DNA of 64,000 bases, taken from Belliella pelovolcani. GTDB taxonomy: Bacteria; Bacteroidota; Bacteroidia; Cytophagales; Cyclobacteriaceae. Numbering within the stretch: the stretch's first letter is position 1; the number at the start of each line of letters is the position of its first letter. A program made the position numbers and the translations under genes. The notes beneath the pieces were generated by a model that saw nothing but the letters and a program-made list of their open reading frames with translations, made no database searches and was not told the DNA's origin. The stretch spans positions 124,001 through 188,000 of the forward strand of contig NZ_FTOP01000004.1 of NCBI RefSeq assembly GCF_900156785.1, read 5' to 3'. Of this stretch, positions 28,908-31,536 are shown piece by piece.

Positions 28908-29516
28908 TTAATTCCTTTTAATTTTCTCCTTGAGCCCTTCAAAAAATGGCGTTCTATTTTTTTTCCTTTTGGCTCTTGCTTTTTGCCTCCGCTTTTTGTC
29001 TTGAGTTTTACTTTTAACTAAAACAGTTCTCGCCGAAATTCCAACTTGTCCTCTAAAAAACTCTTCCCTTCCTGACATGTTAAAATTAGGCTTGTAGTCC
29101 AGTGAAATCGTAGTGTTGAGCACAGTCATTTCTATTCCTGCAATCAAATCTATTCCATTGGTCGCATTACCGTAGGTCGTTATGATTTCCATTGTTGCAG
29201 GGTTTTTCACCTGACTTTCCTCCCAACCAAATGAATAGCCCAAACCATAATAATAATTGAAACGCTTAGAGATAATTGGCTTGTGTTGCTCGAGGAGCAA
29301 ATGCATCGTTGTATTTCGACTGAAATCTGATTGAATGATTCCCTCTAGGGTCGTATGTTTCAAAATACGCTGCTTCGCTGTAAGCCCTAAGGTTCGACTG
29401 TAATCATTAGATCCTAATCTCAAACCAGCTGCTGTTCCATAGCGTTGCGCTTGAACATCAGTCAATGTGAATAGTATCAAGAAAAATGGAATCAGGAGTA
29501 TAAGGTGATTTTTCAA
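28908..29516 (-). CDS. Outer-membrane-barrel-like protein with very basic tail
   Basis: 202 residues that start at a TTG (29516), since a stop lies just upstream in frame and no ATG precedes the signal peptide (ending about residue 24, VQAQ). The middle part alternates in barrel fashion (AAGLRLGSNDYS, YYYGLGYSFGW, TTISLDYKPNFN). The last about 35 residues are strongly basic (KKRRQKARAKRKKN), which is odd for an outer-membrane protein and may bind LPS or nucleic acid. Function unknown. It follows the VLRF1-like gene in the same direction (59-base gap). Confidence 0.6.
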   Translation of the reverse strand: MKNHLILLIPFFLILFTLTDVQAQRYGTAAGLRLGSNDYSRTLGLTAKQRILKHTTLEGIIQSDFSRNTTMHLLLEQHKPIISKRFNYYYGLGYSFGWEESQVKNPATMEIITTYGNATNGIDLIAGIEMTVLNTTISLDYKPNFNMSGREEFFRGQVGISARTVLVKSKTQDKKRRQKARAKRKKNRTPFFEGLKEKIKRN

Positions 29517-29575: not shown

Positions 29576-30286
29576 TTACCAATCTTCTTCCTCTTCGTCT
29601 ATCTGCTCACTATCATTTGAAGAAAAATACCCAGCCAATATTTCTCTTCCTTGTTCAGTCACCTTAACTTCAGCCTTCAATAAAAACTCATTAGTTTCCA
29701 TCAATGCTTCATAAGTTGGATTTTGGATATGTTTTGGGATTTTGAATATCCTAGAATCTTGTTTTTCAAATGGAATGCCTACTTTGCCTCCGTATAAATA
29801 CGGAATCAACGTTTCCGAGCAACTAATTCCGATCCTATCTATTCTGAATTCTTCAAAATGCTCTCTCAGTCGCTCATTTATGTCATCAAAGAAATCTAAA
29901 GTCTCTTGCAACCTAACTCTAGATCCTGCTCGAGACTTACCTTTTGTTTTCAAATGTTTGATTTGACTTTTTCCCTGTTTTTTTCTAACCATATAAGCAC
30001 GAAAAACTTTATGCCTTTCATTTACAAAATTTTCAAAAAATCCAACCGAACCAATTCCCGATCTTATCATGATTAAGACATAATTGAGAAATTCCTGTTC
30101 TTGAATCACATTTTTCTTAGCATCAAAATTTATATTCAAAGGAAGCCTGATTTTGATACAATTTTCACCTGAATCTGTATAGCTAATCTGATGTTTCTTT
30201 TGACTATATTCGAAACTTAGTCCACTATTTAGGAGAGAATCAAACAACTTTTTAAATGCTTCTTTTTCAAATAAATAAGTCTTCAT
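29576..30286 (-). CDS. VLRF1-like protein (Vms1/ANKZF1-type release factor fold)
   Basis: 236 residues. The core block (residues 93-108) reads KVFRAYMVRKKQGKSQ, followed by a basic, KSRAGSR-containing loop and RLQETLDFFDDI. This matches the VLRF1 signature of eukaryotic Vms1/ANKZF1 (KTFHRYxVRKxQGGxQ...KSAGxxLRRYNE), the factor that cleaves peptidyl-tRNA on stalled 60S subunits; the catalytic Gln would be Q108 or Q104. The later segment ending SRIFKIPKHIQNPTYEAL parallels RIRxIPFPTRRPTFEEV. No zinc finger or ankyrin part is present. Cytoplasmic, probably acting in ribosome rescue; the family is recognised by motif and function is inferred. Confidence 0.75.
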   Translation of the reverse strand: MKTYLFEKEAFKKLFDSLLNSGLSFEYSQKKHQISYTDSGENCIKIRLPLNINFDAKKNVIQEQEFLNYVLIMIRSGIGSVGFFENFVNERHKVFRAYMVRKKQGKSQIKHLKTKGKSRAGSRVRLQETLDFFDDINERLREHFEEFRIDRIGISCSETLIPYLYGGKVGIPFEKQDSRIFKIPKHIQNPTYEALMETNEFLLKAEVKVTEQGREILAGYFSSNDSEQIDEEEEDW

Positions 30287-30323
30287 TTACTTTTTTTTTA
30301 TGTTTCCTCCTTGTAGATGGTCT

Positions 30324-30331
30324 TATATTTG
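30324..30331 (+). promoter_or_regulatory. Predicted -7 element (TATATTTG)
   Basis: Exact match to the Bacteroidota -7 consensus TAnnTTTG, 18 bases before the ATG at 30350, in the short divergent spacer. No clear -33 TTTG was found at the usual distance. Confidence 0.45.
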
Positions 30332-30349
30332 ATACTAAAGTAAAAAACC

Positions 30350-30874
30350 ATGGAAAATAAAATACAATATCTGCTTGATAAAATGTGTGATAAGTCTGAA
30401 GAAGAGGCTTACGCTTATGCTGATCAACTTGCAGAAATAGGAACGGAAGAAGTGCTAGATAGTTTGATCGATGTATTGAACAGTGAAAATATTGACAATG
30501 CTTATTTAGCGGCCAGAGCTTTGAGTAAGATCGAAAATAACAATAAGGCTCTTGAACCACTACTAGAGAAAATTCACGATCATGCAAATAAAAATAGAAA
30601 TGGACTCTTTGTCCAAGCGCTTGAAGGGTTTGATTTGAGTGACAAATTTGTTGATGTTCTCAGGATATATCTTTTCGGAAACTTCAAATCATCGAATTTG
30701 GCTAAAACCTACCTGGATCATGTAGAGTTTGATTTGAGCCCGAGGACGATTAAGAAAGCAGAAAAGCACTGGAGCCATTTTCAGAACAACTCCGATCAGG
30801 AAAGTGATGATTATGCCATCAAAAAAGCAGAGGTTGAAACTATATTGAATGAAATAAAACAATTATTTCTTTAA
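30350..30874 (+). CDS. HEAT-repeat-like protein
   Basis: 174 residues, wholly alpha-helical, with repeating AxxLAEIGTEEVLDSLIDVL and ARALSKIENNNKALEPLLEKI units, as in short HEAT/PBS-lyase-type repeats. No signal peptide; probably a cytoplasmic scaffold or interaction protein. It is divergent from the VLRF1-like gene with 63 bases between, and is followed 41 bases later by another unknown gene in the same direction. Confidence 0.65.
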   Translation: MENKIQYLLDKMCDKSEEEAYAYADQLAEIGTEEVLDSLIDVLNSENIDNAYLAARALSKIENNNKALEPLLEKIHDHANKNRNGLFVQALEGFDLSDKFVDVLRIYLFGNFKSSNLAKTYLDHVEFDLSPRTIKKAEKHWSHFQNNSDQESDDYAIKKAEVETILNEIKQLFL

Positions 30875-30915: not shown

Positions 30916-31536
30916 ATGATAGTATCAAAAGAAATGAAAACGGCATACCAAGATTTTTTGGAAGATTTTGGGTTCAATCTAGATCCAACGATTCTTCATT
31001 ATGTCAAATTATTTGATGAAGGCAAACAGGTCGTCTTCTTTCATCATATCTCAAATTCAGATTCTAACTGCATTGAGGTTCAGCTTGGCATTAGAATCGA
31101 CGCAGTAGAAGATATCATCAATCAGTTCTTGCCATCATTGGGTGATTTTAGTGAAAGAAGTACAACATTGATCATGCCCATCGATCAGATCAATGCCAAC
31201 ATGCAAAGACGGTACTTCATTGAAGAAGAAAAAGAAGTGCCTGAAGTCCTTAAAAAAATTGAAAGTCATTTGATAAATGATGGTTTTAGGTGGCTAGATA
31301 GGTATTCAGACCCAATAATTCTTGAGGATTATTTTAATAATAATCCAGATCAAGAATTTATCACTCAGAACTTCACTTATCGATCTGCTCGAGCTATTAC
31401 GCTGTGTAAATTATATAATCCGAATAACTACGAGGAAAAGAAAAAGGCTTATTTGGACAAACTAGAGGAAATGATGGTCACTCCATTTACGCTGGCAAGC
31501 TTTCTTAACCTGCTAAACTATCTAGAGAACAACTAA
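30916..31536 (+). CDS. Conserved hypothetical protein
   Basis: 206 residues, soluble, with no signal peptide. The N-terminal half has a FFHHISNSDSNCIEVQLGIRI strand-like region and the C-terminal half is helical (LDKLEEMMVTPFTLASFLNLL). The ATG at 30916 is used, but M7 (MKTAYQDF) is an alternative. No family recognised. It shares an operon with the HEAT-like gene and ends at the terminator 31535-31567. Confidence 0.6.
   Translation: MIVSKEMKTAYQDFLEDFGFNLDPTILHYVKLFDEGKQVVFFHHISNSDSNCIEVQLGIRIDAVEDIINQFLPSLGDFSERSTTLIMPIDQINANMQRRYFIEEEKEVPEVLKKIESHLINDGFRWLDRYSDPIILEDYFNNNPDQEFITQNFTYRSARAITLCKLYNPNNYEEKKKAYLDKLEEMMVTPFTLASFLNLLNYLENN

Follow-up and report, generated by a model that had tools for sequence, protein, structure and literature searches.

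Eukaryotic Vms1 frees unfinished proteins from jammed ribosomes, and a gene within a 64,000-nucleotide stretch of Belliella pelovolcani DNA (the whole of the DNA analysed, hereafter the window) raises the question of whether this bacterium encodes a release factor of the same type and, if so, which pathway that factor would serve. The initial annotation, which claimed an open reading frame at 29576-30286 and gave no strand, had both ends exactly right, and the frame lies on the minus strand (Table 1). Its three sequence blocks were also found as claimed, with KVFRAYMVRKKQGKSQ occupying residues 93-108, KSRAGSR residues 117-123 and SRIFKIPKHIQNPTYEAL residues 178-195.

Table 1 Features of the bVLRF1 locus, in window coordinates
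Feature	Position	Strand	Evidence
bVLRF1 gene, 236 aa plus stop, ATG start	29576..30286	minus	ORF, PF18826, Ka/Ks
N-terminal part (residues 1-68) preceding the Pfam domain; strands plus one helix	30083..30286	minus	AlphaFold2, ten-residue blocks at pLDDT 88-93; Pfam match begins at 69
VLRF1 release-factor (RNase H-like) domain, residues 69-208	29663..30082	minus	PF18826; Foldseek top matches Vms1, Balon and eRF1 complexes
Catalytic loop and start of the next helix, residues 98-125: Y98, R101, G105, S107, Q108 (GxuQ), R123, R125	29912..29995	minus	Conservation, pLDDT, Vms1 alignment
Q108 codon, candidate water-positioning Gln (Vms1 Q295)	29963..29965	minus	Invariant in 71/71; profile alignment; Q295 tested in PMC5989216
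Acidic tail ending Asp-Trp, residues 226-236	29579..29611	minus	W last in 41/71 relatives vs 7/457 neighbouring ORFs
Divergent intergenic region, 63 bases	30287..30349		Sequence; TATATTTG at 30324-30331 (+), towards the HEAT gene
HEAT-repeat protein, 174 aa, divergent neighbour, possible partner	30350..30874	plus	PF13646 at 4e-8; adjoins bVLRF1 in 16/44 loci

Checking the claimed VLRF1 assignment by a Pfam scan, we obtained a match to PF18826 (bVLRF1) over residues 69-208 at 2e-30, with 106.1 bits against a curated cut-off of 27, which bears the assignment out; no other Pfam profile rose above its cut-off across the 236 aa. The NCBIfam model Phr_regulator (15.9 bits, cut-off 320) and Pfam DUF3996 (14.4 bits, cut-off 22) were rejected as falling below threshold, and neither Pth (PF01195) nor RF-1/ArfB (PF00472) appeared in the protein's two Pfam matches up to an E value of 1, a range in which HMMER filters drop most matches above 0.1. 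The frame was open in homologues at 28-94% identity, and comparison with the nearest relative (L001, 94% identical) gave a Ka of 0.025 against a Ks of 0.264, a ratio of about 0.1 that indicates purifying selection. Because the profile match, the open frames in homologues and this selection coincide, a chance open reading frame is excluded. The genome holds a single bVLRF1 copy; ten relatives lie in genus-assigned genomes or a MAG (six Belliella, one Rhodonellum, two Marivirga and one unclassified Bacteroidetes MAG), and the homologue of Belliella buryatensis is 94% identical.

As the initial annotation had suspected, the fold had been assigned before: in 2019 Burroughs and Aravind named the bVLRF-1 family and predicted its peptidyl-hydrolase activity (PMC6514570). 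Like that family, the window protein scores above the curated PF18826 cut-off and has the GxuQ motif, the conserved arginines and a Bacteroidota host, and nothing disqualifies it. Among the titles that it listed, a literature search whose coverage largely excluded subscription journals showed no experimental study of any bacterial bVLRF1. The gene is real and conserved, its product is probably an active release factor of the Vms1 type, and it is an ordinary representative of an already predicted family.

At the level of sequence, the resemblance to Vms1 is real, but weak when judged from a single sequence alone: phmmer against the PDB reached Vms1 (5whg) at E 0.087, behind two GMP synthase chains (0.01 and 0.023). 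A 50-row profile, for which the 74 loci were thinned at 72% identity to 49 and joined with the window protein, retrieved only Vms1 at E ≤0.01, with three sequences, the best being 6r86 at 2.3e-11; the GMP synthase link (phmmer E 0.01) was missing from this search and was dropped. The predicted structure, modelled by AlphaFold2 from 11 sequences (mean pLDDT 81.3, pTM 0.75), was compared with the PDB by Foldseek, which listed 12 chains at E ≤0.001, by entry title four Vms1, three Balon and five eRF1. Vms1-60S complexes held ranks 1, 2 and 4 and the Vms1 core 5whg rank 6, while Balon, which we take to belong to the baeRF-1 clade, stood at ranks 3, 7 and 10. The best match was Vms1(Q295L)-60S (6r84; E 3.4e-6), and the release-factor fold proposed earlier was upheld, although the TM-score of this match, 0.47 on the query, and its rmsd of 25 count against the main reading. 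The further claim that the sequence blocks match the Vms1 core stood for the loop region, on both profile (2.3e-11) and fold; the third block, RIFKIPKHIQNPTYEAL, was only loosely aligned in the profile alignment.

Conservation was evaluated on 74 bVLRF1 loci plus the window, 75 rows that were reduced to 71 distinct relatives by removing four identical ones, and all rows had been picked by Pfam or tblastn match, never by motif. Y98, R101, G105, Q108, R123 and R125 were each present in 71/71. The GxuQ motif here reads G105-K-S107-Q108, with position 107 occupied by S in 57 relatives, A in 12 and F in 2 (S or A in 69/71). Spacing was likewise kept, at ten residues from Y98 to Q108 in 70/71 and seventeen from Q108 to R125 in 71/71; by sequence, the loop of one relative, L076, is one residue shorter. 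Elsewhere in the region residues 96 and 97 varied (commonest residue in 46/71 and 43/71), and residue 99 was M in 65/71. The Gln loop had been proposed with both Q104 and Q108 as its glutamines; only the latter held, being invariant and aligned with Vms1 Q295. Q104 was kept in 68/71 and replaced by R in two relatives and N in one (L076, L058 and L079), all three of which retained Q108, and these replacements ruled it out as the catalytic residue.

In the profile alignment Q108 pairs with the Gln that closes the GGSQ motif of Vms1; stepping back from there, Y98, R101 and G105 correspond to Y285, R288 and G292. In mutational work on yeast Vms1, hydrolysis is reported as absent in R288A and G292A/G293A and as strongly impaired in Q295L, in G292A and on deletion of S294; Y285A causes a partial growth defect, and H279A, H283A, R284A and T286A behave like wild type (PMC5989216). 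Since mutations at R288, G292, Q295 and Y285 harm Vms1, four positions that matter there are invariant here. The positions that Vms1 can do without show no uniform pattern, since residues 96, 97 and 99 vary to different degrees as given above. Invariance by itself is no proof of catalysis, because H92, the counterpart of Vms1 H279, is conserved in 70/71 although H279A is reported as harmless in yeast (PMC5989216). Residues 100-124 had pLDDT below 50 in the AlphaFold2 model, which fits a GGQ-type loop that is not bound to a ribosome, and the helix after the loop (119-146, of low confidence up to residue 124) carries R123 and R125. Judging from the alignment, Q108 is the candidate catalytic Gln; that GKSQ differs from a strict GGQ counts against Gln-dependent release.

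The protein's family and fold, its invariant residues, a loop of low confidence (flexible) and the co-occurrence with RqcH (below) are observed, and on this basis we consider it likely that bVLRF1 is a Gln-dependent peptidyl-tRNA release factor. In what follows, contact with rRNA, hydrolysis and the large subunit as substrate are modelled on Vms1 and eRF1. The protein would most likely enter the A-site side of the ribosome, its target probably being a free 50S subunit that still bears peptidyl-tRNA. There the basic loop and helix (R101, R123 and R125) would contact 23S rRNA, Q108 at the tip of the flexible GxSQ loop would direct a water molecule to the ester bond of the peptidyl-tRNA, and the nascent chain would be freed without the reading of a stop codon. 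With less support, bVLRF1 may end RqcH-driven quality control as Vms1 ends the Rqc2-driven one, working beside Pth and not replacing it.

A search of the same genome for RqcH, an ArfB-like protein and tmRNA, the presence of which the initial annotation had left to be checked, found all three. RqcH is 521 aa long (NFACT_N 4.5e-19, NFACT-R 6.5e-16), tmRNA scored 123 bits, Pth is also encoded, and two PF00472 proteins with frames of 359 and 350 aa were taken as RF1 and RF2. The ArfB-like protein, 142 aa with a GGQ, is encoded on the same contig outside the window (L123:1459-1887, +); its last two residues are likewise Asp-Trp, preceded by a basic tail. In ten relatives, 20 pieces of 20 kb placed at the same distance as in the window's genome yielded no ArfB. 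ArfB releases chains independently of a stop codon via a Gln loop; although bVLRF1 resembles it in Gln-loop release, ArfB belongs to another family (PF00472), and the ArfB-like protein of this genome is a separate gene product. Pth (PF01195), for which the same job is proposed, likewise belongs to another family, and a separate Pth is encoded in this genome. In published work Pth is reported to free tagged chains in Bacillus subtilis ribosome quality control (RQC), and ArfB is called a peptidyl-tRNA hydrolase (PMC11317155). In the order set Pth was present in 144/146 genomes, both misses being non-carriers of bVLRF1, and in 39/39 carriers. The tmRNA was counted only above cut-off (9/14 controls), because at E 0.001 the model matched all 14, archaea included; by this count it was present in 119/128 family-set genomes and 61/62 carriers, the exception being G314. 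Since carriers keep Pth and tmRNA at these rates, bVLRF1 substitutes for neither, and its role as a replacement of either was rejected.

The genomic distribution bears on the pathway. Carriers of bVLRF1 numbered 5 of 296 genomes in the phylum set, 6/149 in the class, 39/146 in the order and 62/128 in the family, with 0/14 among controls; RqcH was present in 221, 29, 124 and 122 genomes of the same four sets. Over the union of sets, 94 of 98 carriers had RqcH. Non-carriers with RqcH amounted to 216/291, 24/143, 87/107 and 62/66 in phylum, class, order and family, and Fisher tests of co-occurrence, uncorrected for kinship, gave p values of 0.33, 0.001, 0.064 and 0.68, respectively, the association being weak inside order and family. 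Carriers nearly always have RqcH, but within RqcH-rich groups the presence of bVLRF1 varies freely. With 221 RqcH genomes against five bVLRF1 carriers among the same 296, RQC can do without bVLRF1. A published count of rqcH in 404 of 1,956 FCB-group genomes (PMC11633108; column order inferred) is in line with the patchy distribution here. Four carriers gave no RqcH match, G329, G347 (L068), G528 (L062) and G576 (L080), in assemblies of about 1,300, 10, 700 and 40 contigs, respectively; given the contig numbers of G329 and G528, RqcH may have been missed in these two. G347, G528 and G576 would be useful for separating bVLRF1 from RQC. A genome congeneric with G347, G397, has both bVLRF1 and RqcH.

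These counts can be read in two ways, which differ over the RQC part of the proposal and agree on Gln-dependent release. bVLRF1 could well serve rescue outside RQC, for example of 50S or 70S peptidyl-tRNA complexes missed by tmRNA, ArfB and RqcH, with its co-occurrence with RqcH a lineage effect, although we lean slightly against this. Its patchiness within RqcH-bearing groups, the non-significant association in order (p 0.064) and family (p 0.68), the four carriers without an RqcH match and the suggestion in the family paper of single-component factors in specialised contexts (PMC6514570) all speak for it, against which stand the RqcH in 94/98 carriers and the fact that Vms1, the best-studied relative, is reported to act on the RQC 60S complex (PMC5989216). 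More tentatively, and with greater doubt, bVLRF1 may complete an RQC pathway in Cytophagales and their kin as its dedicated release factor, with RqcH adding the tails and bVLRF1, recruited via its acidic Asp-Trp tail or the HEAT neighbour, stopping the tailing.

The tail ends in Trp in 41/71 relatives, in 39 of which D, E or N precedes it, often with an acidic stretch ahead. Among neighbouring ORFs of at least 120 aa in the 44 loci described below, Trp was last in 7/457 and followed D, E or N in one. A wider count over 0.99 Mb comprised 757 ORFs of at least 120 aa, of which 33 ended in W; 18 of these were bVLRF1, and the other 15 included three with D/E/N-W. On the tree of 71 relatives the Trp ending is clustered, since only three changes are needed, and it occurs in both branches that part at the deepest fork. 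Sections 6, 7 and 13 of PMC6514570 make no mention of a Trp tail, which may be a short binding motif.

Neighbourhoods were compared in 44 loci, comprising the window, 4 of the 10 loci of genus-assigned relatives and 39 pieces from other carriers; the Pfam scan of neighbours covered five window neighbours, and most of the others were grouped by clustering. The HEAT gene adjoined bVLRF1 in 16/44, divergent and upstream in 15 and, in L099, downstream in the same orientation; a seventeenth locus (L120) had it 2 kb away. The survey genomes among HEAT-adjacent loci all belong to the window's own family, and the three other loci are from Belliella and Rhodonellum; the gene was not found in the 14 loci of other families (L101-L114). 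In L089, L099, L117 and L118 it still adjoins bVLRF1 though the other shared neighbours are absent. A Trp tail was present in 13/16 HEAT-adjacent loci vs 8/28 others, a linkage in which both features follow the tree. The HEAT-repeat protein is a candidate partner and nothing beyond that. Promoters of Bacteroidota have the -7 element TAnnTTTG, and TATATTTG fits it, marking a putative promoter towards the HEAT gene. Two proteins without a Pfam match flank the locus, each in 11/44 loci: one of 206 aa directly beyond the HEAT gene (30916-31536, +), and one of 202 aa (28908-29516, -), whose hydrophobic N terminus resembles a signal peptide and which lies downstream of bVLRF1 in the same orientation. 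Neither RqcH nor an ArfB-like protein was encoded in the 44 neighbourhoods (blastp, E 1e-3), so an operon with either was discarded. In these loci bVLRF1 is unfused and stands beside neither, yet 94/98 carriers do encode RqcH.

Two further readings concern the act of release. The first, that the chain is freed by a tRNA cut near the CCA end instead of Gln-guided ester hydrolysis, is in our judgement unlikely: Vms1/ANKZF1 has been called a dedicated tRNA endonuclease cleaving the CCA 3' end (PMC11317155), and the window protein carries GKSQ in place of GGQ, but Q108 is invariant (71/71), Q295L impairs tRNA hydrolysis by Vms1 (PMC5989216), and the family paper argues for GxuQ and against a nuclease reading (PMC6514570). 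The second, in which bVLRF1 would plug the A site without catalysis, in the manner of Balon or Dom34, and shield or split idle ribosomes, draws on the Balon structures at Foldseek ranks 3, 7 and 10 and is very improbable, in that Dom34 and most of the baeRF-1 clade are described as lacking the Gln, with a poorly conserved loop of variable length in baeRF-1 (PMC6514570), whereas bVLRF1 relatives retain both Gln (71/71) and loop length (70/71).

Among known systems, bVLRF1 stands close to yeast Vms1 and human ANKZF1 (eVLRF1), with which it has a common catalytic domain and whose Y, R, G and Q, important in Vms1, align with its own. The eukaryotic proteins have a Rei1-type zinc finger, ankyrin repeats and a VIM motif; bVLRF1 has no zinc finger or ankyrin repeats, because no other Pfam domain is above cut-off in its 236 aa, and carries an acidic Trp-ended tail in their place. 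The bacterial and archaeal VLRF-1 proteins have been described as standalone and independent of other RQC components, with Rqc2 noted as ancient and widespread (PMC6514570); in contrast to that standalone description, a genomic pairing with RqcH was found here, which is where the value of the finding lies. The present analysis also adds to the known family the tmRNA, ArfB-like and Pth genes of the same genome, the acidic Trp-ended tail and the HEAT-repeat neighbour. How tailing is terminated in bacteria was called unknown in 2021 (PMC8012679). One bacterial lineage, for which Belliella, Rhodonellum and Marivirga provide named species, holds RqcH, Pth and a Vms1-type factor together, and the idea of a dedicated bacterial RQC release factor is therefore directly testable. 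The finding also bears on the bacterial origin of eukaryotic Vms1 proposed in PMC6514570, and, if the tentative RQC proposal is true, the Rqc2-Vms1 pair would operate in bacteria as it does in eukaryotes.
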